A stretch of DNA of 64,000 nucleotides, taken from assembly GCF_000022545.1 (NCBI RefSeq), contig NC_012883.1, positions 620,001 to 684,000 on the forward strand. Direction: 5' to 3'. The notes beneath the pieces were generated by a model that did not search any database, was not told the DNA's origin, and saw only the letters and a program-made list of their open reading frames with translations. Below are positions 18,975-32,166 of the stretch, one piece after another. How positions within the stretch are numbered: position 1 is the first letter of the stretch; the number at the start of each line of letters is the position of its first letter. The DNA is from Thermococcus sibiricus MM 739 (lineage in GTDB: Archaea > Methanobacteriota_B > Thermococci > Thermococcales > Thermococcaceae). The position numbers and the translations under genes were made by a program.

Positions 18975-19343
18975 ATGCCACGTGGAATGGGATGGGGGAG
19001 AGGGAGAAGACGAAAAATGCGTTTTATAGGATTTATCCCCGAGGTTAGGCATTTTTATCCAGCTAAGCCACCATTTGGCCCGCCTCAACCCCCCATTTTC
19101 ATGAGTTATGAAGAGTTTGAAGCATTAAGGCTGGTTGATTATGAGGGCCTGACTCAAGAGGAAGCTGGCCAGAGAATGGGTGTCTCAAGAGGAACAGTGT
19201 GGAGAGCATTAACATCAGCGAGGAAAAAAGTTGCTCAAATGCTTGTTGAAGGGAGGGAGCTCATAATCCTTGCTCAAGGGAATGAAATTCCTAAGGATAG
19301 TTCATCTGAGGAGCCAGGGGTTTCCAATAATGGAGAAGGATAG
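18975..19343 (+). CDS. DUF134 (UPF0251) DNA-binding protein
   Basis: The 122-residue protein starts M-P-R-G with an Arg/Gly-rich segment, then P-P-F-G-P-P-Q-P-P, and a sigma-70-like helix-turn-helix (L-T-Q-E-E-A-G-Q-R-M-G-V-S-R-G-T-V-W-R-A-L). DUF134 proteins are commonly encoded next to NifX-like and MinD-ferredoxin genes in archaea and anaerobic bacteria, and are presumed regulators of them. AGGTGT precedes the ATG at 18975. The stop sits exactly where similarity to the downstream radical-SAM gene begins (about 19338), so the tail may have been affected by that deletion. It is my candidate to bind the palindromes described at 21.6, 25.6, 26.6 and 27.5 kb. Confidence 0.88.
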   Translation: MPRGMGWGRGRRRKMRFIGFIPEVRHFYPAKPPFGPPQPPIFMSYEEFEALRLVDYEGLTQEEAGQRMGVSRGTVWRALTSARKKVAQMLVEGRELIILAQGNEIPKDSSSEEPGVSNNGEG

Positions 19344-19864
19344 AAAGGTCTCATAAGGCCTTAAGACTTGATAAAATTCTTGAAGGAATGCTTGAGTTTA
19401 GAAAAGAGTTCAAAAGCAAGCATGTTATAGAAACAATGCTCATAGATAAGATAAATTATAGTGAATAATTCGAGAAAATTGCTCCTCTTTAAGGGAATTA
19501 AAGCCCGAAATCGCTTATATAGCAGTTCCCACCAGGCCCCCTGGGAAAAGTGGGTAAAGCCCACTAGAGAAGAAATTATTAACATGGCCTTTCAGGCCTT
19601 TGCTGAGGCCATTGGGAGGAGAAGGTTGAGTATCTAGGATATGAGGGAAACATCTTTGCTTTTACCGGAAACATGGAAGAGGACATACTGAGTATTACTG
19701 CGGTTTGTCCAATGCGTGAAGATGCTTTAAAAGAACTCTTGAAAAAAGCGAATGTTGATTGGGCCACTGTGGAAACGCTTATAGAGGAAGGAAAGTTGAT
19801 AGAACTTGAATATGGTGAAAAGAGGTTTTATATGAGAAAACTAAAAAGCAGAGAATTACTTTAA
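19338..19864 (+). pseudogene. Degenerate AT-rich copy of the radical SAM gene (C-terminal half)
   Basis: Translating the three forward frames gives, in order, pieces that match the protein at 25621-26574: H-K-A-L-R-L-D-K-I-L-E-G-M-L-E-F-R-K-E-F, then F-E-K-I-A after a TAA at about 19467, then the last 80 residues intact (G-Y-E-G-N-I-F-A-F-T-G-N-M-E-E-D). The N-terminal half with the CxxxCxxC motif is missing and the middle has several stops and shifts. The codons are AT-rich like the rest of the genome, while the intact copy is GC-rich. This is the native gene, deleted and decayed, with its 5' break at the DUF134 stop codon. Confidence 0.88.
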
Positions 19865-20743
19865 AATCTGCTCTTTGACAACTTCTGCAATCCCTTTGAG
19901 GGCTTTTGAGGATTTTGACTCTGGGAATGCCTCTACTACAGGTTTAAGCATTGTCATACTCCTTGGAATTGTTCTGTCGTAGGGTATTTCGCCGATTATT
20001 GGTATGTCTTCCTCCTTTGCAAATTCATATAGGCCTTTGAATCCTGGGTTCAAGTCTAATTTATTGATAATTAAATAGGCAGGCTCTCTAAAGTGTTGGA
20101 CAACTCTGTAAACCCTCTTTACATCGTTTAGGGAAGCTGGAGTCGGTTCTGCAACGAGGATTGCCACATCTGCACCACCAAGGCTTGCTATAACTTGACA
20201 TCCAATGCCAGCAGCTGAATCAACTATCATGTGCTCTATTCCTTTCTCTTTCATGATTCTTTTGGCCCACTCTTTTTCTTCTGTAACAAGCTTTCCGCTG
20301 TTTGGTCTCCCTACGTCAAGCTGTGCTGAGATCAAGGGAAAGCCGTATTTAGTAGTTGTTTTTCTGATCACGCCGGAACGAACTTCTTCCAAGGTGATTA
20401 CCCCATTTACAGGGCACACGAGTCTGCAAACTCCACAGCCTTCACATGTTAGCTCGTTAACTACATAGTTTTCGTCAAGAATCTTTATGCAGTCATAGGG
20501 GCATCTCTCGGCACATATGCCACACTTTATGCATGTTTCACTGTTTATTTTTGCGACTTTTGCACCTACGAGTTCTTTTTCTTCTTCCCATCTCTCAACA
20601 CCGAAGAGAAGGTCAAGGTTTGGCGCATCGGCATCAGCGTCAACCGCTATTAAAGGATAATCATCTTTGAGTAGGTATATGAGCGCTGCAGCTACGCTTG
20701 ATTTTCCAACGCCACCTTTTCCACTTGCTATTGCGATTTGCAT
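19856..20743 (-). CDS. MinD-type ATPase with inserted 2x4Fe-4S ferredoxin domain (second of pair)
   Basis: The 295-residue protein has a deviant Walker A K-G-G-V-G-K-S-S near residue 9, then an inserted ferredoxin domain with two clusters (C-I-K-C-G-I-C-A-E-R-C-P and C-E-G-C-G-V-C-R-L-V-C-P), and a later D-S-A-A-G-I-G-C-Q-V switch region. Pairs of such ATPases occur with NifX-like proteins, for example in the Desulfovibrio orange-protein (ORP) complex, and resemble ApbC/Nbp35 iron-sulfur carriers. The ATG at 20743 follows GAGGTGA. It lies five bases after the first copy, so both are one operon. Confidence 0.92.
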   Translation of the reverse strand: MQIAIASGKGGVGKSSVAAALIYLLKDDYPLIAVDADADAPNLDLLFGVERWEEEKELVGAKVAKINSETCIKCGICAERCPYDCIKILDENYVVNELTCEGCGVCRLVCPVNGVITLEEVRSGVIRKTTTKYGFPLISAQLDVGRPNSGKLVTEEKEWAKRIMKEKGIEHMIVDSAAGIGCQVIASLGGADVAILVAEPTPASLNDVKRVYRVVQHFREPAYLIINKLDLNPGFKGLYEFAKEEDIPIIGEIPYDRTIPRSMTMLKPVVEAFPESKSSKALKGIAEVVKEQILK

Positions 20744-20748
20744 CTTAA

Positions 20749-21609
20749 TCACCTCAAATAATTGACTACTCTTTCGGCAAGCTCCTTGAAAATTCTCGCT
20801 TCTTTACTCTCACTTAAAATTATTGGCTCTCCTTTAATGTAGCTTCTGACGATATCTTCGCTGTAAGGAATTTCCGCAACTATCTCGGCATTGTATTTTT
20901 GTGCTATCTCCTTCACTCTCTTCTTTTCTCCAAGATCACTTCTGTTAATCACAACCCAAGCTTCTATGTTCATGAGCCTACCAAGCTCTAGGATGAGGGT
21001 TAAGTCATGGAGGCCCAATGGAGTCGGTTCAGTAACCGCTATGAGGAGCTTTGAATCTTCTAATGCTTTCGAGACGGTATTGCTTGTACCAGCGGCAGTG
21101 TCTACAAGCAGGAGTCTCCTGTCAAGGGATTTTGCTCTCTTTTTTGCCATGGTTACAATAGGCATGGCTCTTTCTTCTCCTTCTAACAGTTTTCCAGTAA
21201 CTAAAGGAAACCCGTAAGGAGTCTCAGTAAGATATGTATGTCCCATGAGTTTTTGGCTCTCCAATATTGCCCCTGTAACAGGGCAAATTATCTCACAAGC
21301 CCTGCATCCAGAGCACAGAGTGGGTATTAGAAAAGGTGTTCCATCCTTCATTGTGATTATTGCCTTTTCTTCACAAACCTCTGCACATTTTTTGCACTTG
21401 GTGCACTTTGAATAGTCAAAGCTGGGCATGAACATCTTCACTGGTTCCTCGTTTTGTAATTCAATTCCAAGAAGGAGGTGATCATTTGGCGCCTCAACGT
21501 CCAAATCTGCCAAAGTTAAGTTGAAATAATCCTGTAAGGCTATTGCAAGGTTGATTGCTACCGTTGATTTTCCGGTTCCACCTTTACCCCCGCTCACGGC
21601 TATCTGCAT
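20749..21609 (-). CDS. MinD-type ATPase with inserted 2x4Fe-4S ferredoxin domain (first of pair)
   Basis: The 286-residue protein parallels its downstream neighbour: K-G-G-T-G-K-S-T near residue 9, V-E-A-P-N-D-H-L-L-L, clusters C-T-K-C-K-K-C-A-E-V-C and C-S-G-C-R-A-C-E-I-I-C-P, and V-D-T-A-A-G-T-S-N. The two are clearly paralogues that probably form a heterodimer. I choose the ATG at 21609, preceded by GGTGGTGA, rather than 21660. Its promoter region is divergent with the NifX-like gene at 21681 and contains both palindromes described below, one on each side of the TATA element. Confidence 0.92.
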   Translation of the reverse strand: MQIAVSGGKGGTGKSTVAINLAIALQDYFNLTLADLDVEAPNDHLLLGIELQNEEPVKMFMPSFDYSKCTKCKKCAEVCEEKAIITMKDGTPFLIPTLCSGCRACEIICPVTGAILESQKLMGHTYLTETPYGFPLVTGKLLEGEERAMPIVTMAKKRAKSLDRRLLLVDTAAGTSNTVSKALEDSKLLIAVTEPTPLGLHDLTLILELGRLMNIEAWVVINRSDLGEKKRVKEIAQKYNAEIVAEIPYSEDIVRSYIKGEPIILSESKEARIFKELAERVVNYLR

Positions 21610-21625
21610 CTCGTCACCACCAGAA

Positions 21626-21639
21626 TTAGGGAAACCTAA
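21626..21639. promoter_or_regulatory. Palindrome B, TTAGG-N4-CCTAA, at the MinD-ferredoxin operon
   Basis: TTAGGGAAACCTAA is a perfect inverted repeat of two 5-base arms. It lies 17 bases before the ATG of the first MinD-ferredoxin gene, just upstream of its ribosome binding site and about where transcription should start from the TATA element at 21643-21650. The same motif is found at 25594 and, with one mismatch, at 27534, in the same position relative to ATG. It is probably a shared operator. Confidence 0.5.
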
Positions 21640-21652
21640 AACTTTAAAAATT

Positions 21653-21668
21653 TTGTGCATATGCTACG
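21653..21668. promoter_or_regulatory. Palindrome A half-site between divergent MinD-ferredoxin and NifX-like genes
   Basis: TTGTGCATATGCTACG matches the perfect 16-base palindrome at 26618 in its first 12 positions. It sits between the TATA-like element TTTAAAAA (21643-21650) and the NifX-like gene start at 21681, so it would be near the transcription start of that gene and upstream of the TATA of the divergent operon. Three related sites occur at three NifX-like promoters in this window. Confidence 0.5.
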
Positions 21669-21680
21669 ATGGGGATAAAA

Positions 21681-22090
21681 ATGAGGTGCCTCAAGGTTGC
21701 GTTCGGAATGGAGGACGATGAGACGCTCACAGATGCACACTATGGTGACTCTGAATTCTTCGTTATATACAAGGTCTGCGAAGACGGAAGCGTTAAACTC
21801 ATAGAAAAGAGACCTAACAAGGCCAAGGACTTTGAGGAAAAAAAAACGATGACCACGGCGATCTGAGGAAGTTCAAGGTGGTTGTGGGCCAGCTCCTCGA
21901 CGTTGACGTTTTAGCGGCATTTAGGATGGGCCCGAACTTTTTGAGGATCAGGGACAGGACAAACAAGGTGGCCTTCTTCACGAGGACGAGGGACTTAAAG
22001 CTCGCCCTCCAGAGGATCATCAAGAAATTCGACGACCTTTGGGGGCAGGTGCAGGCTAAGAAGGCCGAGAAGCCGCCGATTGAGGAGTGA
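21681..22090 (+). pseudogene. NifX-like protein, frameshifted at a run of nine A
   Basis: The first frame reads M-R-C-L-K-V-A-F-G-M-E-D-D-E-T-L-T-D-A-H-Y-G and continues to an A9 run at 21838-21846, after which it stops at about 21866. The rest of the same domain continues in another frame (H-G-D-L-R-K-F-K-V-V-V-G-Q-L-L-D-V-D-V-L) to the stop at 22090. One extra A would restore about 136 residues. The family is dinitrogenase iron-molybdenum cofactor binding (NifX/NifB C-terminal). The break may be a sequencing error, real mutation, or transcript slippage. GC content rises sharply in the second half. Confidence 0.75.
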
Positions 22091-22151
22091 GTTGGAAATT
22101 AAAATGGTAACACGCTCATTCCACCTCAACCACGTACTTCCTGTTCCCTTT

Positions 22152-22580
22152 TTAGAAGCCCCTGAAAGAGCCGAGCCTTAGACCGAGAATGGCCTTTTGA
22201 AAGTCGACCACCTTCATTGCGGCGAGGTGCGTAACGCGCGTGCCCTTGAGGAACTCTGGCAGGAGCTGTCCCGTCGGTCCAGTTAGAACGAAGAGCTTTG
22301 CCTTCTTTGCCCTGTCAATCAGCATGTTCACCGTGCCGTTCACAAGGCAGGTCGCGCTTGCTATGACCGCGTCCATCTCGGGGAGCAGGTGATACTCAAG
22401 GGCGTCGCTGTAGGTGTCCTTGTCCCAGAGCTTTGCGTTCCTCTCGAAGACGTACAGCTCGTAGCCCCTCCCGCGCAGGACCTCGGCCAGAGGGGGCATG
22501 TTGCCCACCACTGCGACCTTTCCAGCGTCTTCCGGGAGGAGCTCAAGCACCTCGACCCACTCCGCTTCGCTTCGTGACAC
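22152..22580 (-). pseudogene. C-terminal fragment of a DUF364 (heavy-metal chelation) protein
   Basis: The 142-residue frame covers only the C-terminal Rossmann-like domain of DUF364: V-A-V-V-G-N-M-P-P-L, L-Y-V-F-E-R-N, A-S-A-T-C-L-V-N-G-T and L-T-G-P-T-G-Q-L-L-P-E. Full-length members are about 240 residues with an N-terminal DUF4213 domain, which is absent. The GTG near 22580 after GGAGGAG could still start translation. Codons are strongly GC-rich compared with the window. The family is linked to metal or siderophore handling and is often near NifX-like genes. The 5' end is cut at the inverted-repeat structure at 22620. Confidence 0.7.
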
Positions 22581-22619
22581 ACTGCGCTCTCCTCCTTTCA
22601 GTCGTCGGGAGACATAAAA

Positions 22620-22694
22620 GGGCTTAAATGGAAATGCCTCAGCTCGGCATTTTCCTAAATTGCTCGCCTTTGGCTCGCAACTTCGTTTAAGCCC
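22620..22694. repeat. Inverted-repeat structure at the junction of the foreign block
   Basis: GGGCTTAAA at 22620-22628 pairs with TTTAAGCCC at 22686-22694. Inside are a hairpin GGAAATGCC/GGCATTTTCC and a CTCGCC...GGCTCG segment. The unit is about 75 bases and has no coding potential. It sits between the cut end of DUF364 and the N-terminal remnant at 22740, so it may be a small non-autonomous element or a scar of recombination. Confidence 0.4.
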
Positions 22695-22739
22695 GATGTT
22701 AGCAGAAATTCCACACGCCGCTCTTAGAAGGTGGATAAC

Positions 22740-22886
22740 ATGAATGATAAAATTGCACCAAACATAATAGATAATAGCTCAAATAGGGAATTAATCAGAG
22801 TATTGAAAAAATCAAAAGAAGCTAAATTTGCTATAGGATATTTCTTCCTGAGCGGACTTTCTCCTTTTAAAAATAATTTTTCATAA
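22740..22886 (+). pseudogene. N-terminal remnant of a PLD-like/helicase defence-type protein
   Basis: The ATG at 22740 (GAAGGTGG upstream) opens 48 codons ending at TAA 22884-22886. The sequence contains K-E-A-K-F-A-I-G-Y-F-F-L-S-G-L, which resembles the start of phospholipase-D-like domains in SNF2/DEAD helicases of restriction or defence type. After the stop, another frame gives a few more coding-like residues (Y-K-R-V-A-F-L-K-I-V-T-G) up to about 22990. This is a truncated remnant inside the foreign block; identification rests on a short motif. Confidence 0.4.
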
Positions 22887-23014
22887 TTTTTCAGAAAATT
22901 ATAAAAGGGTAGCATTCTTAAAATTGTGACGGGATACGGAACTATATATAAAAAAAGAGGAAACGGTAAAAGGATATACTCTTATCGAAATATTTAAACA
23001 AAGAGGGATAAAAA

Positions 23015-24103
23015 ATGACAAGATCTAAGAGAGGCAGGCGAACAAAACCTTATAGCAGCACGGATAAAGCAGGCCTACCCCCCGGGTCCATGATCTTCAT
23101 CGGCGAACAAAAAATGGAATCTGCCCGTATTGATGTTATCGACTTTAACGAAACCGAATTGAACGAACTGCACAATGTTGCTATAGGCCGATGCGTGGAA
23201 ATGGCTAGAACCCCCGACACTGTAACGTGGATTAACGTAACTGGTCTTCACGACATTAATTTAATCAAGAAGTTGGGTGAGCCCCTCGGTCTACATCCAC
23301 TGACCCTGGAGGACATTGTCAATACCGCTCAGCGGCCAAAAATCGAGGAGTTTCCGGGCTATGTTTACATGGTGCTTAAGATGATACACTACGATCTTGC
23401 CACGAACCAGATAGAAATGGAGCATGTAAGTCTAATCATTGGTGAAAGCTATGTCGTATCCTTTCAGGAAAAGGAAGGGGATGTGTTTGATCCAGTGCGG
23501 GAGAGAATTAGGGCTTCAAAAGGCCGCATCCGCTCCATGAAGGCCGATTATCTCGCCTATGCGCTTATGGATGCTGTTGTAGATAATTATTTTTTAGTTG
23601 TTGAGCACATCGGCGACCAAATCGAAGACCTTGAAGATCGGGTCCTCGCTGACCCGAATCCCACCATTCTCCAAGAGTTGCACCGGCTCAAAAGAGACCT
23701 CTTGACTATTCGTAAAGCTGTCTGGCCTTTGCGTGAGGAAATTGGAGCTCTAATAAAGAGCGAATCTGCGTTGATCCGTGCAGAAACGAAGGTGTATTTA
23801 CGCGATCTTTACGATCACATCATCCAGATCATCGACATGGTGGAGACTTTTAGGGACATTCTAGGTGGTATACATGATCTCTATCTGTCGAATATCAGCA
23901 TCCGCATGAACGAAATCATGAAAGTCCTCACTATCATTGCCACCATCTTCATTCCGCTGACATTTATTGTCGGTGTGTACGGCATGAACTTCGAATACAT
24001 GCCTGAGCTTAATTGGAGGTGGGGCTATTTTTCCGTTTGGGGGGTTATGATCGTCATTGCTATCGGCATGGTTATCTATTTCCGAAAAAAGAAATGGCTA
24101 TAA
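23015..24103 (+). CDS. corA: CorA-family magnesium/cobalt transporter
   Basis: The 362-residue protein has the CorA layout: a large soluble N-terminal alpha/beta domain, a long helix, and two C-terminal membrane helices joined by Y-G-M-N-F-E-Y-M-P-E-L, the G-M-N selectivity motif. CorA channels carry Mg2+, and some relatives Co2+ or Zn2+. AGAGGG precedes the ATG and ACTATATATA lies about 70 bases upstream. Codon use differs from neighbouring core genes and the sequence looks more like bacterial or methanogen members than the usual thermococcal ones. It sits among broken genes and an IS605 scar, so recent transfer is likely. Confidence 0.9.
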   Translation: MTRSKRGRRTKPYSSTDKAGLPPGSMIFIGEQKMESARIDVIDFNETELNELHNVAIGRCVEMARTPDTVTWINVTGLHDINLIKKLGEPLGLHPLTLEDIVNTAQRPKIEEFPGYVYMVLKMIHYDLATNQIEMEHVSLIIGESYVVSFQEKEGDVFDPVRERIRASKGRIRSMKADYLAYALMDAVVDNYFLVVEHIGDQIEDLEDRVLADPNPTILQELHRLKRDLLTIRKAVWPLREEIGALIKSESALIRAETKVYLRDLYDHIIQIIDMVETFRDILGGIHDLYLSNISIRMNEIMKVLTIIATIFIPLTFIVGVYGMNFEYMPELNWRWGYFSVWGVMIVIAIGMVIYFRKKKWL

Positions 24104-24357
24104 ATGCTGTGCCACAGTGTCAAATGTGAATTTAATGCAAGCAACAGGGTTCTCTATGAACCTGAACTTTTATTGGCGAGAGGTAAGATAAAATGATGCC
24201 GCCGATCTGAACTCCCCGCTTGCTACGGTGCTTCGGTCAACACGTGGATATGTGGCTTTGCCTTCGGCTACACCAAAATTTCGCCTTACGGCGAAACTTC
24301 ACATCTCTCCAAAACATTATAATATGAGATTCCTATTCATAAGCTTGAGGTGTACTC
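24104..24357. other. Non-coding stretch with IS605-like relic and hairpins
   Basis: No gene is seen here. The segment CTGAACTCCCCGCTTGCTAC at about 24208 resembles CTGAACTCTCCGCTTAGCTT at about 41766, and both look like the 3' end of decayed TnpB elements. A hairpin TTTCGCC-TTAC-GGCGAAA lies near 24283, and the promoter of the next gene is at about 24318 (ATTATAAT). The relic separates CorA from the DNA glycosylase. Confidence 0.4.
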
Positions 24358-24789
24358 ATGAGGCTCTGGTCTCTTCACCCGCAATACTTAGATGCTAAGG
24401 GTTTAGTTGCCCTTTGGCGGGAAGGTTTGTTGGCTAAGGCCGTTCTTGAAGGGAAGACAAGAGGCTATACTGCCCACCCACAGCTCATACGATTTAAAAA
24501 GCAGGAGAGGCCGCTGGATGCCATCAATGTGTATCTGCAGGCAGTCCTTCAAGAAGCTCAAAGACGAGGTTATCACTTTGATTCGAGCAAGATCGACCTG
24601 AAGGCCACACATCCGAAGATTCCGGTAACCAGCGGTCAGCTCGCCTATGAATGGAAACACTTGCTCGGCAAGCTGAAGGTGCGAGCTCCTGAGAGATTTC
24701 AAAAACTGAAAGCCCTGGACGGGCTGGAGCCGCACCCTCTGTTTGTAAAGGTGAAAGGCCCCGTTGAGCCCTGGGAAGTGGTGAAATGA
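24358..24789 (+). CDS. Pyrimidine-dimer DNA glycosylase (T4 endonuclease V-like, Pyr_excise family)
   Basis: The 143-residue protein begins M-R-L-W-S-L-H-P-Q-Y-L-D-A-K-G-L-V-A-L-W-R-E, continues with H-P-Q-L-I-R-F and Y-E-W-K-H-L, and is typical of the family around T4 endonuclease V, which cuts UV dimers by a glycosylase/lyase reaction. AGGTG precedes the ATG. Its GC-rich codons differ from the genome average and it belongs to the block 21.7-27.3 kb with foreign composition. DNA repair of UV lesions in a deep-sea archaeon would be unusual, so the true substrate is uncertain. Confidence 0.82.
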   Translation: MRLWSLHPQYLDAKGLVALWREGLLAKAVLEGKTRGYTAHPQLIRFKKQERPLDAINVYLQAVLQEAQRRGYHFDSSKIDLKATHPKIPVTSGQLAYEWKHLLGKLKVRAPERFQKLKALDGLEPHPLFVKVKGPVEPWEVVK

Positions 24790-24846
24790 GCAATAGATTT
24801 GGAAGAGAGCATCGTCATCCTGTTCCCGGCCATTTAGGGTTTTCAA

Positions 24847-25488
24847 TCAGGAGTGTGACCCCTTGAAGACCTTTATTACCACAAAGCTTCCCTTGCCGTA
24901 GCCCGGCTTGACGGGTTCGACTTCTTTGATCTCGTCAAGCTTGTGGAAGAGGGTCTGGATCATCTCAAACTTCCTGAAGCCGACTTTCCCGAGCAGTTCT
25001 AAGAGTTCATCCGTGGAGAAGAACCTCGCCTCGCGGTAGAAAACGCTTTTTTCTTTGTTTCGCTCGTATTCCTGCCCGATTGGACTGTTCCTGTCAACAA
25101 AGCCTATTATGAGTGCCCCTCCATGTTTTAGGACGCGGTATGCCTCGCGTAAAGCCTTTTCAGGGTCGTCAACGAAGCAGATGGTTGTAACCATCAGGAG
25201 GTAGTCGAGGCTTTCATCCGGGAAGGGGAGGCTTTCGGCAACCCCCTCGATGACCTCTATGCCCTTCTCTCGGGCTATCTCGGCCATTCCCTTGGACGGC
25301 TCAACCCCAAGTTTTATCCCGAGCGGTGCCGCAAAGCGGCCGGTTCCGACACCTATCTCTGCCCCCTCTCCTTCTTTTGGTAGGAGTTTTCTGATAGCTT
25401 CAAGCTCCGAAAGGTAGACATAGCGATGCCTCTCAAACCAATCCTCATATCTCTCCGTGAACTTCTCAAAGGGTTCGATTTTTGGCAT
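24847..25488 (-). CDS. Class I SAM-dependent methyltransferase
   Basis: The 213-residue protein has motif I A-E-I-G-V-G-T-G-R-F near residue 41, an acidic loop G-V-E-P-S-K, and motif IV L-D-Y-L-L-M-V-T-T followed by F-V-D-D-P-E-K-A-L-R-E-A-Y-R-V-L-K-H-G-G, all typical of the Methyltransf_11 group. The substrate is not evident. GGGGAG precedes the ATG at 25488. Divergent from the radical SAM gene; both are GC-rich, suggesting they arrived together. A UbiE-like or small-molecule role is possible but unsupported. Confidence 0.85.
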   Translation of the reverse strand: MPKIEPFEKFTERYEDWFERHRYVYLSELEAIRKLLPKEGEGAEIGVGTGRFAAPLGIKLGVEPSKGMAEIAREKGIEVIEGVAESLPFPDESLDYLLMVTTICFVDDPEKALREAYRVLKHGGALIIGFVDRNSPIGQEYERNKEKSVFYREARFFSTDELLELLGKVGFRKFEMIQTLFHKLDEIKEVEPVKPGYGKGSFVVIKVFKGSHS

Positions 25489-25593
25489 TGTACTCCCCTA
25501 AAGATGTTTGGACACAATCTGTTATTAGGTTTTCCTTCAAGGAGGAACGCTGAAGGTTATCCTCCATGGTATATTCAAAAACCTTATACGCTT

Positions 25594-25607
25594 TTAGGCT
25601 TACCTAA
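25594..25607. promoter_or_regulatory. Palindrome B, TTAGG-N4-CCTAA, at the radical SAM gene
   Basis: TTAGGCTTACCTAA is a perfect inverted repeat 14 bases before the ATG at 25621. The surrounding layout, TATA-like CCTTATACG, then palindrome, then GGTGGTGAC, is nearly the same as at the MinD-ferredoxin operon (21609-21650). A looser copy (TTAGGTTTTCCTTC) lies at about 25534. Confidence 0.5.
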
Positions 25608-25620
25608 TTTCGGTGGTGAC

Positions 25621-26574
25621 ATGATAGCATTTGGACCGGTTCCCTCAAGAAGGCTCGGAAGGAGCCTCGGAGTGAACAATATCCCGAATAAAGTCTGCAC
25701 ATACGCCTGTGTTTACTGCCAAATTGGGAGAACTTTAAGGATGGAAATCGAGAGAAGGGCCTTCTACGATCCGGAGCTGGTATTTAGGGAGGTCTCTGCG
25801 AAAGTCAACGAAGCCATAGAAAGGGGAGAGGAAATTGATTACATAACCTTCGTCCCCGACGGAGAGCCAACGCTCGATGCTAACCTCGGAAAGGAGATAG
25901 ACCTCCTTAGGCAACTCGGGATAAAGTTAGCCATCCTCACAAACTCCTCCCTAATCTGGCGCCAGGACGTGAGGGAAGACCTCCTAAAGCTGGATTTTGT
26001 TTCGTTGAAGGTGGATGCAGTCAGCGAGGCTTTGTGGAGAAAGATTGACAGACCCCACAAGAGCCTGAGTCTGGGGAAAATCCTTGAGGGGATGCTTGAG
26101 TTCAGGAAGGAGTTCAGAGGAAAGCTTGTTACTGAAACAATGTTAATCGACAACGTGGAATACGACGATGAGTTCGAGCGGATAGGGGACTTTTTAAGGG
26201 AACTAAAGCCGGACGTAGTTTACATAGCCATTCCCACCAGACCACCGGCCGAGCCCTGGGTGAGGCCCGCGAGAGAGGAACTCATTAACAGGGCCTTTCA
26301 GGCCTTCAGCAGGGCCCTCGGCGAAGACCGTGTGGAGTACCTCATAGGCTACGAGGGAAACGCGTTTGCATTTACTGGAAACGTTGAGGAAGATTTGCTT
26401 AGTATTACTGCCGTCCATCCTATGAGGGAAGACGCCGTGAAAGAATTTCTGCGGAAAGCGAACGCTGACTGGAACATTATCGAGAAACTGATTCGAGATA
26501 ACAAGCTCATAGAGCTGGAATACGAAGGAAAGAAGTTCTATATAAGGCGGTTGAAGAGCAGAGAAACACAGTAA
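25621..26574 (+). CDS. Radical SAM protein of the NifX/MinD-ferredoxin locus
   Basis: The 317-residue protein starts F-G-P-V-P-S-R-R-L-G-R-S-L-G-V-N-N and carries the cluster motif C-T-Y-A-C-V-Y-C (CxxxCxxC) near residue 30, then the TIM-barrel segments F-V-P-D-G-E-P-T-L-D and I-A-I-P-T-R-P-P. The C-terminal about 80 residues form a winged-helix-like domain (L-S-I-T-A-V-H-P-M-R-E-D-A-V-K-E-F-L). The substrate is unknown; context suggests cofactor or metal-cluster maturation. I start at the ATG at 25621 after GGTGGTGA and reject the longer frame. The gene is GC-rich and is the intact counterpart of the pseudogene at 19338-19864. Confidence 0.88.
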   Translation: MIAFGPVPSRRLGRSLGVNNIPNKVCTYACVYCQIGRTLRMEIERRAFYDPELVFREVSAKVNEAIERGEEIDYITFVPDGEPTLDANLGKEIDLLRQLGIKLAILTNSSLIWRQDVREDLLKLDFVSLKVDAVSEALWRKIDRPHKSLSLGKILEGMLEFRKEFRGKLVTETMLIDNVEYDDEFERIGDFLRELKPDVVYIAIPTRPPAEPWVRPAREELINRAFQAFSRALGEDRVEYLIGYEGNAFAFTGNVEEDLLSITAVHPMREDAVKEFLRKANADWNIIEKLIRDNKLIELEYEGKKFYIRRLKSRETQ

Positions 26575-26617
26575 GGCAACCTCTTCTTAATGTTAGGGCA
26601 ATCGAAAACTTTAAATA

Positions 26618-26633
26618 TTGTGCATATGCACAA
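26618..26633. promoter_or_regulatory. Palindrome A, perfect 16-base operator at a NifX-like gene
   Basis: TTGTGCATATGCACAA reads the same on both strands. It follows directly after the TATA-like TTTAAATA (26610-26617) and ends 29 bases before the ATG at 26663, so a bound protein would cover the transcription start. The two related sites at 21653 (12 of 16) and 27509 (13 of 16) also precede NifX-like genes. Confidence 0.6.
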
Positions 26634-26662
26634 AATAATAGAGCAAAAGTGAGGTGGTTGGT

Positions 26663-27274
26663 ATGAGGATCGCGATACCAACGAATGGCGGAGGAAGAAA
26701 CGATACTGTGGCTCCAGTTTTTGCACGTGCTCCAGCGTTCTACATAGCTGATGTTGACGAGAACGGAAACATGATTAGTGAAAAGGTTATACAGAACACT
26801 GGCGCCATGGCAGGGGGTGGGGCCGGACCGATGGCCGTCCAGACCCTCATCAACGAGGGCGTCGAGGCAATAATAGCACCGCAGGTCGGTCCGAACGCAC
26901 TCGGCACAATCCAGGCGGCTGGAATAAAGCTCTACCAGGTAGCGGCTGGGACTCCAGTTGAAGAAGCCATAAAGGCTGTGGTCAGCGGAAGTATTGGTCA
27001 ATTCACGGCTCCAGTGCCACCTACCCCAACAACACCAACAGCACCGGCTCCTGCCTACGGACCGTACCCAGCAACACCTGCCTACCCTGCCTACCCCGCA
27101 TACGGCTACGGCCCTGGTTGGGGTTGGGGCCGCGGTGGTGGTTGGGGAAGAGGCAGAGGCTTCGGCCGTGGAATGGGTGGCGGAAGAGGATGGGGAGCAA
27201 GATTAGGTTATTGTCCATGGACAGGAATGCCCAATAGAAGAAACTGGTTTGCGAGATTTTTCGGCTGGTGGTGA
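26663..27274 (+). CDS. NifX-like protein with Pro/Tyr and Gly/Arg-rich tail (DUF5320-like end)
   Basis: Residues 1-115 are a NifX/NifB-type cofactor-binding domain (M-R-I-A-I-P-T-N-G-G, V-A-P-V-F-A-R-A-P-A-F). After it comes a P-T-P-T-T-P-T-A-P linker, Tyr-Pro-Ala repeats, then Trp/Gly/Arg repeats, ending G-Y-C-P-W-T-G-M-P-N-R-R. That last motif resembles the small DUF5320 proteins that accompany NifX-like genes. The relative in Desulfovibrio, ORP, binds a Mo-Cu cluster, but I cannot tell the metal here. GAGGTGG precedes the ATG at 26663. Promoter has the perfect 16-base palindrome. Confidence 0.85.
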   Translation: MRIAIPTNGGGRNDTVAPVFARAPAFYIADVDENGNMISEKVIQNTGAMAGGGAGPMAVQTLINEGVEAIIAPQVGPNALGTIQAAGIKLYQVAAGTPVEEAIKAVVSGSIGQFTAPVPPTPTTPTAPAPAYGPYPATPAYPAYPAYGYGPGWGWGRGGGWGRGRGFGRGMGGGRGWGARLGYCPWTGMPNRRNWFARFFGWW

Positions 27275-27305
27275 ACTTTTCTTTTAAATTTTTGGAGGAT
27301 TTAAA

Positions 27306-27512
27306 ATGCCACGTGGATTTGGAAGAAACTATGGAAAGAGAAGCTTGCTAGGTTATCGGTTTGGAGGGTTTTATGGCCTCTTGGATGCACTCCTCCTAAT
27401 CGGGATGCTCTATTTTTTAGTAAAACTCCTTTTAGTGGCTTTACCCTATGCGCTAGGTCTTTTGGTCATTTTTATTATCCGAGGGTTTTTGAGGCCAAGG
27501 ATAGTTTTTTGA
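27306..27512 (+). CDS. Small membrane protein with M-P-R-G-F-G start
   Basis: The 68-residue protein has a basic Gly/Arg N-terminus (residues 1-20) and one or two hydrophobic helices (about 22-58), ending in basic residues. TTTGGAGGA precedes the ATG. Its first four codons and the DNA around them (AAAATGCCACGTGGA) are the same as at the DUF134 start at 18975. No family is recognised. It lies 31 bases after one NifX-like gene and 54 before another, so it is probably co-expressed and may anchor the complex to the membrane. Confidence 0.65.
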   Translation: MPRGFGRNYGKRSLLGYRFGGFYGLLDALLLIGMLYFLVKLLLVALPYALGLLVIFIIRGFLRPRIVF

Positions 27513-27524
27513 GCTTATGCAAAA
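27509..27524. promoter_or_regulatory. Palindrome A variant at the third NifX-like gene
   Basis: TTGAGCTTATGCAAAA matches the 16-base palindrome at 26618 in 13 positions. It overlaps the stop of the small membrane protein gene and lies just upstream of the TATA-like TTTTTTAAAT at 27525-27534. Confidence 0.4.
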
Positions 27525-27533
27525 TTTTTTAAA

Positions 27534-27547
27534 TTCGGTTTTCCTAA
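27534..27547. promoter_or_regulatory. Palindrome B variant at the third NifX-like gene
   Basis: TTCGGTTTTCCTAA matches TTAGG-N4-CCTAA with one mismatch. It lies 19 bases before the ATG at 27567, between the TATA-like element and the ribosome binding site, as at the other two sites. The order palindrome A, TATA, palindrome B repeats the arrangement in front of the MinD-ferredoxin operon. Confidence 0.4.
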
Positions 27548-27566
27548 TTTATTTGGAGGTGGGAAT

Positions 27567-28007
27567 ATGAGGATAGCTGTTGCAACCGTGAAAGGAGGTC
27601 TGGACGATTTTGTCAATCAACACTTTGGAAGAACTCCAACTTTCACCATAGTAGATGTTGAAAATGGGGAGATAAAGAATGTTAAAATAGTCTTAAACCC
27701 AAGTGCAAGCTCTCCCAGAGGTGCTGGGGTCCAGGCGGCTCAATTTTGCATAAACGAAGGAGTAGAAGTAGTAATAGCCGGTCAGTTCGGGCCCAACTCA
27801 GCGGGAGTACTTCAGGCCGCAGGCATAAGAATGATCTCGGCCCCGGCCACGATGACCGTCAGGGAAGCGGTTGAGACTTTCCTTAGGGGTGAGCTCACCC
27901 AAGCCGTTTTCAGCTCCGAGGGCGGTAGGAGCTACGGCGGAGGCATGGGTAGAGGCATGGGCCGTGGAATGGGTGGCAGAAGAGGAGAGGGAAGAGGTGA
28001 ATGGTAA
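27567..28007 (+). CDS. NifX-like cofactor-binding protein with Gly/Met/Arg tail
   Basis: The 146-residue protein has a NifX-like domain (M-R-I-A-V-A-T-V-K-G-G, V-N-Q-H-F-G-R-T-P-T-F, V-V-I-A-G-Q-F-G-P-N-S-A-G-V-L) and a repeated G-R-G-M-G-R-G-M-G tail. The domain binds metal clusters in nitrogenase assembly; in organisms without nitrogenase the role is open. GGAGGTG precedes the ATG. Third-position GC rises from about 27720 onward, as though the 3' part had been exchanged. Its stop lies 62 bases before the next start. Confidence 0.85.
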   Translation: MRIAVATVKGGLDDFVNQHFGRTPTFTIVDVENGEIKNVKIVLNPSASSPRGAGVQAAQFCINEGVEVVIAGQFGPNSAGVLQAAGIRMISAPATMTVREAVETFLRGELTQAVFSSEGGRSYGGGMGRGMGRGMGGRRGEGRGEW

Positions 28008-28069
28008 ACTCTTTAATTTTGAGAGAAAACCGTTTATACTTCTTCCCCCTATTATTTTCGGTGGACTTT

Positions 28070-28978
28070 ATGAAGTACAGCAAACTTGCTGTGAAGATTT
28101 TGAAATATGAAGAAAAAGAGATATACTATGACCCAGCCTATCATGGCAGAACTTTGAAGATTTTTGGCATCGATGATGACCCTGCGAGGGTTATCGAGTA
28201 CATAGGAGACCAATTTCTTGAAAAGGACTACGGACTGATTTTCTTTGACACAAAGGGAAAGTATCCCAAGGAGAAATTTGACACTGTGATAAGAATAGAG
28301 GATAACAAGCCCACAGGCCTTGATCCCATAAAGATGGTCGAAAAGGGCCTCTTAAAGGACTTTTATACTGCAGCCACAATAATTCAAACTATATATGGAT
28401 TGGATCGCTCTCTCACAAATAAGCTCTATGCTGACATTCTAGAGGGCAAAGTTAAGAGTGTAAAGGATGCAGCTAAGTCAGAAGAGCACTATGGAGAAGT
28501 CATAAGAGAAGCTTACACCTCACTCGACGATGTCTTCTTTGAGGGTGAACCTCCAGAACTCGGTAAGAGCATTTTAGTTGACTTTGGAAGAACATATAAC
28601 ATAAGTATTGCTGGAATGGCATTTTTAATTCTCGCAGCGGCTGTTAAAGATAGGAGAAGCACGTTGATTGGAATCGACGATGCAGCAGTTCTCTTCTACA
28701 CAACTCCAGGGATTGCTGCTCTTCCCCTATTGACCCAGCCCATGAGGGGAAGGGTTACGGTTTTGGGCTCAAGATACGTTGTGGAGAATATTCTCAACAT
28801 ACCTGGGCCAACTTTAGTGCTGTACAACGATCCCGATTTGCAGAGCATGATCTACGAAGCGAACGGCGCTCCTCAGGGTGATATGAGAAAGCACGTTCTT
28901 AAGGGAGAGGGTGCGTTTATATGGAGAACAACGCAAACCTTAGAGGTCGAGTTTGGAAAGCTCCCGTTTGAGGGGTAA
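28070..28978 (+). CDS. Conserved hypothetical protein of about 302 residues, no P-loop
   Basis: I start at the ATG at 28070 (GGTGG upstream) rather than the frame opening at 28001. The protein alternates strands and helices (L-I-F-F-D-T-K-G-K-Y, S-I-L-V-D-F-G-R-T-Y, T-L-V-L-Y-N-D-P-D-L). The order of motifs and the terminal G-E-G-A-F-I-W-R-T-T-Q-T-L recall the C-terminal half of HerA/VirB4-type ATPases, but I see no Walker A motif. It could be an inactive relative. It sits three bases before the MBL-fold gene, so the two are likely co-translated. Confidence 0.6.
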   Translation: MKYSKLAVKILKYEEKEIYYDPAYHGRTLKIFGIDDDPARVIEYIGDQFLEKDYGLIFFDTKGKYPKEKFDTVIRIEDNKPTGLDPIKMVEKGLLKDFYTAATIIQTIYGLDRSLTNKLYADILEGKVKSVKDAAKSEEHYGEVIREAYTSLDDVFFEGEPPELGKSILVDFGRTYNISIAGMAFLILAAAVKDRRSTLIGIDDAAVLFYTTPGIAALPLLTQPMRGRVTVLGSRYVVENILNIPGPTLVLYNDPDLQSMIYEANGAPQGDMRKHVLKGEGAFIWRTTQTLEVEFGKLPFEG

Positions 28979-30799: not shown

Positions 30800-32166
30800 A
30801 TGTAATGAGTGGCACAAATGCACCTCACTCAAAAGAACCACTTGCGAGTGGGCAAGAAGACTTACAAGCTCCTCCGCATACTCACTCACCTATCTAAAGA
30901 CTTGTATAACTTCACCCTATACGTGATTAAACAACACTACGAGTTGAACGGTTCATTCCTCCCATATGCCAAAGCTTATCACTTGGTCAAAAACAGTGAA
31001 CCTATAAACTATTACCAAGTCAAGTGGCGCAGCAAACCATGAAAATTGTCGAGAGGAACTATCACTCCTTCTTCAGGCTTCTAAATGAGAGAAAAAAAAG
31101 GTAATTACAACAAGCCGATTCACCCACCAAAGTTTTTACCAAAAGATGGTCACTTTGTCCTAATCTTCCCGTACCAATCCTTCAGGGTGAAGGAGGATAA
31201 GGTTATTCTCACTCTCGGGCGAAACTTTGCGAAAAAATTTGGTGTAATGCACCTTGAAATCCCCCTCCCCAAGAACATTAAAGGGCACAGGATAAAGGAA
31301 GTCCGAATTTTACCAAAGTATAATGCCCTCTGGTTCGAGGTTGAGTACGTTTACGAAGTGCAATCAGAGAAGAAGGATTTAGACCATTCAAAGTATTTGG
31401 CTATTGATTTGGGCGTTGATAATTTCGCCACTTGTGTAGAAACCATCGGGACGGCCTTCATTATTGAAGGCCGGTGGTTGAAGAGTTTTAACCGGTGGTG
31501 GAATAAAGAGAAGGCCTAAATTCAAAGCCAATACGATAGGCAAGGAATAAAGTTTGGGAAGAAAATGGCTTTGCTTTTGAGGAAGAGGAAAAATGTAATG
31601 AATAATTTCATGAATCAAGCCGTGAATTACATTATCAAGTACTGTTTGGAGAATAAAATCGGGAACATCGTGATTGGAGAGTTGAAGGAGGCGAAGCAAA
31701 GGGTTTTCCTAGGCAAGGTGAATAATCAGAACTTCCAATTCATCCCCTATGGGCTCTTCAAGCAAAAATTAAAGGCAAAGTGTGAATATTATGGGATTAA
31801 CTTCATTGAAGTTAATGAAGCCTATACTAGCAAGGTTGATGCTTTGGCCTTGGAACCACTAGAGAAGAAGGAGGAGTATTGGGGGAGGAGGGTCTGTAGG
31901 GGTTTGTATCAATCCTCCACTGGAGTTTTGGTTAATGCTGACGTGAATGGTGCTTTAAACATTTTGCGTAAGGTAGCCGGCGATTCCTCCATTAGGGGGA
32001 TAGCCGGTAGTGGCCGTGTGAACCGGCCAGTGAGAGTGAGGTTACTGGCAACAGGATGCCGAATGAACTCTCACGAAACCTCACCCGTTAGAGTGGGGTA
32101 GTTCACGAGAAATAACTAATGCGAAACCAATGTGGCCTACCCCACCCTAAAGGGTGAGGTTTTCGG
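30800..32166 (+). mobile_element. Decayed IS200/IS605-family TnpB element
   Basis: The element consists of a broken tnpB gene and a right end with hairpins. There is no adjacent Y1 transposase (tnpA), so it is a TnpB-only type. The right end holds ACCTCACCCGTTAGAGTGGG at about 32082, and an inverted copy (ACCCCACCCTAAAGGGTGAG) at about 32140-32159. In active elements such a region is transcribed as the guide (omega) RNA. The left boundary near 30800 is not certain. It interrupts the space between an SDR gene and scpB. Confidence 0.7.
30809..32101 (+). pseudogene. tnpB: TnpB RNA-guided nuclease gene, two frameshifts and one nonsense codon
   Basis: Three frames together give one TnpB: N-terminal helical part 30809-31042, middle 31085-31519, C-terminal part 31565-32101. 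RuvC motifs are intact: L-A-I-D-L-G-V-D near 31395, I-V-I-G-E-L-K at about 31670, and N-A-D-V-N-G-A-L at about 31933. The defects are a frame change near 31030, an extra A in the A8 run at about 31090, and an in-frame TAA at 31517 after K-E-K-A. The last two fragments are in the same frame. Zinc-finger cysteines seen in many TnpB proteins are largely absent, as in this thermococcal subgroup. Confidence 0.9.

Follow-up and report, generated by a model that had tools for sequence, protein, structure and literature searches.

A probable iron-sulfur storage locus of Thermococcus sibiricus and a candidate regulatory role for DUF134

Two described systems are relevant for the gene cluster at positions 18975-28978 of a stretch of 64,000 nucleotides (the window) from Thermococcus sibiricus MM 739 (contig NC_012883.1, positions 620,001 to 684,000). 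The iron-sulfur storage protein IssA (SipA, PF2025) of Pyrococcus furiosus keeps a store of iron and sulfide in the form of thioferrate and is able to rebuild a [4Fe-4S] cluster in ferredoxin; the factor which mobilizes the store was stated to be unknown (PMC5524996). The main text of that paper mentions neither MinD nor SipB, and it does not describe DUF134 or the regulon reported below. In Desulfovibrio vulgaris, the ORP complex (Orp3, Orp4, Orp5, Orp8, Orp9) comprises a pair of MinD-like proteins carrying ferredoxin motifs as well as proteins with a NifX domain, all encoded together, as in the window. The original prediction, made from the sequence, had considered the locus an archaeal version of ORP and had overlooked the IssA identity of one of the NifX-like proteins. 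Since this protein carries the Gly/Arg-rich tail of IssA, for which biochemical data were published (PMC5524996), iron-sulfur storage is the nearer system. The locus is probably the iron-sulfur storage locus of Thermococcales, under control of the DUF134 protein by way of a palindrome designated box A; this palindrome and its regulon are new here. The main features are:

18975-19343, plus strand: DUF134 (UPF0251) protein, PF02001 4e-26, Sigma70_r4 2.9e-9, recognition helix SRGTVWR; proposed regulator
19856-20743, minus strand: MinD2, a MinD-type ATPase with two 4Fe-4S motifs, CbiA 5.5e-17, Fer4
20749-21609, minus strand: MinD1, a MinD-type ATPase with two 4Fe-4S motifs, NUBPL/ParA 2e-15, CbiA 3.1e-15, Fer4
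26663-27274, plus strand: putative issA (sipA), NifX domain (PF02579 2.9e-21) followed by a Pro-rich and Gly/Arg/aromatic cationic tail
27567-28007, plus strand: nifX2, NifX domain (PF02579 8e-25) with a short Gly/Arg tail of isoelectric point (pI) 11.3
26619-26632, unstranded: perfect box A palindrome TGTGCATATGCACA, downstream of the issA TATA and ahead of the gene start
21654-21667, unstranded: box A, half-preserved, TGTGCATATGCTAC, between minD1 and the divergent nifX3
27510-27523, unstranded: degenerate box A of nifX2, TGAGCTTATGCAAA
21626-21639, unstranded: box B, DtxR-like, TTAGGGAAACCTAA, minD1 promoter
25594-25607, unstranded: box B, TTAGGCTTACCTAA, promoter of the radical S-adenosylmethionine (SAM) gene
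26593-26606, unstranded: degenerate box B, TTAGGGCAATCGAA, 5' of the issA TATA, differing in 2 of 10 positions
27534-27547, unstranded: box B of nifX2, TTCGGTTTTCCTAA

With high likelihood, judged from its sequence, the tailed NifX protein is IssA. PF02579 covers residues 16-110 of the open reading frame (ORF) 26654-27274, in keeping with the N-terminal domain of about 110 residues (IPR003731/PF02579) of IssA, and both proteins continue with an unstructured cationic tail rich in Pro, Gly, Arg and aromatic residues. The tail consists of 15 Pro, 22 Gly, 9 Arg/Lys and 19 aromatic residues among 88 positions, contains no acidic residue and only one Cys (Cys184), and has a pI of 10.9 (published IssA, 10.7). 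The window protein is longer (203 vs 179 amino acids), with a tail of about 88 residues compared to about 70. Orthologues were present in all complete Thermococcaceae genomes searched, in agreement with the universal occurrence of IssA in Thermococcales; most matched over the whole length with 59-86% identity, including the C-terminus. The closest solved structure was MTH1175 (9.9e-20; ORP, 2.2e-10), which had served as structural model in the IssA paper (PMC5524996). A Gly/Arg-rich protein had been predicted as a separate entity; such a region exists, but it forms the tail of the NifX-like protein, and a match to DUF5320, with which the tail had been compared, was not found.

Expression data for relatives are consistent with this assignment. 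A response of sipA to both iron and sulfide is attributed to a 2010 study, as cited in PMC6981617. When sulfur was supplied to Palaeococcus pacificus, four of the top five induced genes were sipA (log2 6.23), the NifX gene beside it (4.29) and a pair annotated as CobQ/Fe-S (3.74 and 3.41), and feoAB was raised. A genome with the gene order of Pa. pacificus (G016), which presumably represents this species, has box A on exactly those three operons. In the text on a 2026 iron-pulse transcriptome of T. kodakarensis, neither issA nor the MinD pair is named.

Box A was found at 94 sites in 37 Thermococcaceae genomes when up to one mismatch to TGTGCATATGCACA was allowed, compared to 2 sites for the reversed control pattern; from 24 other genomes it was nearly absent. 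Nearly all inspected sites (79 of 83, from 35 genomes) are located just upstream of issA, nifX2, nifX3, nifX4 or minD1 or, rarely, of a cation-efflux gene, a small Gly/Arg ORF or an Mrp gene. With up to two mismatches, each of 34 issA promoters contained the box (shuffle mean, 0), as did 24 of 31 sequences upstream of minD1; the comparison of Thermococcales promoters did not reveal it in those of the radical SAM gene, of genes of the 28070 type or of DUF134. A second NifX locus of this genome, at 1525498-1530287, has a perfect box A before nifX4; in relatives, nifX4 and an FmdE-family gene are divergently oriented. A cation-efflux (CDF) gene has box A in front of it in four Thermococcus-type genomes, which suggests that metal export also belongs to the regulon. 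One box A site (L081:6328) was considered as the start of a DUF134 gene, and hence as a sign of autoregulation, but was rejected, since translation gave a decayed Gly/Arg-rich small ORF. Control of issA by SurR was also discarded; the published motif GTTn3AAC was not seen when the issA promoter of the window was read.

DUF134 occurs once per genome and is the only regulator tied by position to the gene set. The window protein is a full-length member of DUF134/UPF0251 (PF02001) with the conserved helix-turn-helix, although Thermococcales members have an Arg-type helix and are devoid of the C-terminal cysteine motifs of several other members. The AlphaFold model of the helix-turn-helix (predicted local distance difference test score about 90) could be superposed on sigma region 4 (0.7 A, 47 columns), and the matching structures include one that is bound to -35 DNA; Pfam and the predicted fold both point to a sigma-4-like element. 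In other lineages, DUF134 genes or their operons begin with a 14-bp palindrome, which immediately follows TATA or overlaps the bacterial promoter. Palindromes with the helix-matched core are also present on the nifX and minD genes linked to DUF134.

Recognition helix and operator were compared for 84 DUF134 proteins, which remained after removal of near-duplicates; sites for the SQ and HQ helices were sought up to 1.5 kb upstream. TGAAT-N4-ATTCA was present in 50 of 68 loci with an SQ helix (0.41 in shuffles) and TGCAT never; conversely, five of six HQ-helix loci had TGCAT-N4-ATGCA (0.03 in shuffles) and none TGAAT. There was no crossover (Fisher, 2.9e-7), and the intermediate helix HQSTFHR was accompanied by a mixed site, TGCAT..ATTCA. 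With Arg at helix position 2, the core RCAWWWGY occurred within 150 bp in 7/10 loci, compared to 4/74 for Gln types. It was also present in all of six previously unseen Arg-type loci (from an E. coli plasmid, Subdoligranulum, Selenomonas, Treponema, Morganella and Providencia); however, the core had been picked after viewing the ten loci, and several of the six are related to earlier ones. The core of box A, GCATATGC, fits RCAWWWGY. The proposed reading of G by Arg and of A by Gln in DUF134, as well as the spacing of the two specificity residues, would parallel R584 and R588 of sigma70 at the -35 element. No report on a function of DUF134 or on the box A palindrome was found in the open-access literature, subscription journals being largely outside this search.

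Relatives of DUF134, often paired with NifX, were noticed on 188 plasmid records, mostly from Klebsiella and Citrobacter, and none were found in phage records. The plasmid examples have Dps, ArsR or SLAC1-type genes as neighbours and tandem GCATATGC sites upstream. Longer DUF134 proteins exist in Selenomonas and Treponema too.

The second palindrome in the promoters of the gene set is box B (TTAGG-N4-CCTAA). With up to two mismatches it was detected before minD1 (31/31), nifX2 (27/28), the radical SAM gene (19/20) and issA (29/34), with shuffles giving 1.3-2.2. The order of elements is B-TATA-A at issA and A-TATA-B at minD1 and nifX2. From its consensus we take box B to be a DtxR-type metal box. 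In this genome exact copies also stand before feoA, ftr1, ZIP, a ZnuA-type ATP-binding cassette gene, FolE2, peroxiredoxins, endonuclease IV and others; the position before feoA, ftr1 and other metal genes resembles that of DtxR-type iron boxes, although the assignment here is by consensus. The box B sites of this genome are likely a DtxR regulon. The homologue of TK0107, a DtxR homologue noted in PMC12827226, is the candidate regulator.

That these gene families should co-occur across Thermococcales had been proposed as a check on the original prediction, and co-occurrence held. DUF134, NifX and MinD families are near each other in Thermococcales and in other orders, where all of them, with both MinD genes, are united in one cluster, and the clustering exceeds chance; in archaea and bacteria DUF134 adjoins NifX, MinD-ferredoxin and Mrp genes. 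In 24 of 31 judgeable genomes no more than 20 kb separates the MinD-ferredoxin pair from issA; the seven exceptions all belong to one genus, in which the pair has moved away from issA and retains box A. Pairing of MinD1 and MinD2 is kept in nearly all Thermococcaceae genomes, and MinD1 orthologues are 69-94% identical. Both proteins scored below the cut-off of the archaeal cell-division MinD model TIGR01969 (76.5 and 57.6 bits; cut-off, 201.75).

We propose that IssA would pack surplus iron and sulfide as thioferrate; binding of thioferrate and formation of nanoparticles by the window protein are presumed from its likeness to IssA. NifX2 and, where intact, NifX3 may be sister scaffolds. For the transfer of Fe-S units to and from IssA and its sisters, the MinD-ferredoxin pair is a natural candidate; most likely it would load or withdraw such units in an ATP-driven manner. 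The set would be controlled at the core promoter by both palindromes. A DUF134 dimer would bind box A TGTGCATATGCACA, each half-site being read by a sigma-4-like helix, in which Arg at position 2 would pair with the C:G flanking the central ATAT; in other DUF134 proteins Gln would pair with T:A at this place. DUF134 would thus regulate issA and its partners, perhaps as a repressor, perhaps as an activator. With a DtxR-type protein on box B, the storage and trafficking genes could answer to both iron and sulfide.

Several observations weigh against this proposal. Box A, or any such palindrome, is missing upstream of DUF134 itself in Thermococcales, and therefore the autoregulation seen in most other lineages is absent there. 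Thermococcales DUF134 proteins form a single clade with the single helix SRGTVWR, so that the code rests on other lineages; since only one helix type is available, extension of the code to box A is a strong argument from analogy. The half-site pattern TG.GC-N4-GC.CA was present in none of ten dereplicated bacterial Arg types, the core alone being common; therefore only the RCAWWWGY core is claimed. The DUF134 protein of the window contains no cysteine and has no evident route to sensing iron or sulfide, and two of the three box A copies in the window are degenerate. For the identity of IssA itself, PF2025 was compared by its published properties rather than by direct alignment. The box A regulon could be real and yet be bound by another transcription factor; many helix-turn-helix proteins are common to all Thermococcales, and the DUF134 promoter without box A would be understandable. 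We regard this as rather unlikely, because DUF134 is the sole position-linked regulator, with one copy per genome, its Arg helix fits the core of the bacterial Arg types, including the six unseen loci, and the 14-bp architecture and promoter position are alike in other orders.

The notion of an archaeal ORP, in which NifX-like proteins would, as in Desulfovibrio, bind a Mo-Cu or similar heterometal cluster and associate with the MinD-ferredoxin pair into a complex, has a real basis in the operon of Peptoclostridium, which is ordered DUF134-NifX-MinD-MinD-MrpORP. The kinds of genes are in common, NifX2 matches the ORP structure 2wfb (3.9e-14), and handling of metalloclusters and kinship with the ORP gene set, as predicted originally, are borne out; from this kinship an Orp8-like Mo-Cu cluster on the NifX proteins is conceivable. 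The archaeal locus is nonetheless centred on IssA, with its tail, which ORP proteins do not possess, and its greater similarity to MTH1175 than to ORP. ORP operons are under sigma54 (PMC6345978); MrpORP (Orp9) and Orp5 were not found in the window locus, whose proteins reached 26-59 bits against the MrpORP cut-off of 450 bits. Sulfur induction, moreover, suits Fe-S storage. ORP is therefore a related system and not the identity of the locus, and a true archaeal ORP appears improbable. Still less credible, and indeed very improbable, is a pathway in which the radical SAM protein would be the key enzyme for maturing a special cofactor, such as that of tungsten enzymes. It would account for weak matches of this protein to models of a tungsten-oxidoreductase maturase (4e-7) and of viperin (1e-10); however, these were far under the cut-off, as was every NCBIfam model matched, its gene is without box A and often distant from issA, adjoining it in some genomes only, and a fusion of NifB type is absent here. 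The radical SAM protein has no NifX domain, and PF00148 had no match in the whole genome, which extends the predicted absence of nitrogenase beyond the window and leaves no indication of a NifB/nitrogenase cofactor system. An iron-sulfur storage locus thus remains the preferred reading.

The remaining genes of the locus are:

21681-22093, plus strand: nifX3, the third NifX-like gene, with a frameshift at an A-run near 21840
25621-26574, plus strand: radical SAM protein (CxxxCxxC), PF04055 6.8e-16
27306-27512, plus strand: small membrane protein in the interval between issA and nifX2, its position kept in many Thermococcales
28070-28978, plus strand: family-less protein 3' of nifX2, without Pfam or NCBIfam match and with neither box in its promoter

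Domain matches bore out the predicted content of DUF134, two MinD-ferredoxin ATPases, NifX-like and radical SAM genes; the CxxxCxxC motif of the latter reads CTYACVYC. Of the three NifX-like proteins predicted, two are clear PF02579 matches, whereas the third is frameshifted and just under the Pfam cut-off. The break is a one-base frameshift beside the A-run, both halves being in a single frame in other Thermococcales, and could be a sequencing error or a genuine loss. Following DUF134, at 19328-19855, are the remains of another radical SAM gene, a decayed 3' part with 8 stops; a close relative (G011) has both copies intact, one beside DUF134 and the other beside issA. Genes unrelated to the set separate nifX3 from the radical SAM-issA half of the locus. 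Between the halves lies an ORF of 142 amino acids (22152-22580) for DUF364 (putative heavy-metal chelation), which is near issA or minD1 in several relatives as well. Broken-up ORFs resembling a TnpB-type transposon protein are situated at 30809-32101. The gene at 28070-28978 might be named SipB from its position: SipA (TON_0919) and "SipB" (TON_0916) of T. onnurineus are three genes apart, and so are issA and the 28070 gene. This tentative label is at odds with one paper which reported no SipB in Pa. pacificus.

Fusions of DUF134 with NifX exist in Roseburia, Pusillibacter and one archaeal metagenome-assembled genome, which suggests that the NifX domain may be a sensor. Tentatively, DUF134 with a NifX-type partner could be a widespread sensor-switch for surplus iron-sulfide, in which the NifX domain, fused to DUF134 or encoded beside it, would bind inorganic Fe-S species and set the occupancy of the palindrome by DUF134. 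If true, the storage protein's own fold would double as gauge of the store. If the helix-operator code is true, replacing helix SRGTVWR by SQPTFHR would shift the preference to TGAATATATATTCA. For the sulfide response of sipA/issA, which needs iron, a candidate regulator, a DNA site and a target set can now be named, and paired MinD-ferredoxin ATPases are linked to iron-sulfide storage. These proposals are testable in genetically tractable Thermococcales, and for the archaeal and bacterial domain DUF134 a function is proposed, together with a simple rule of protein-DNA specificity.

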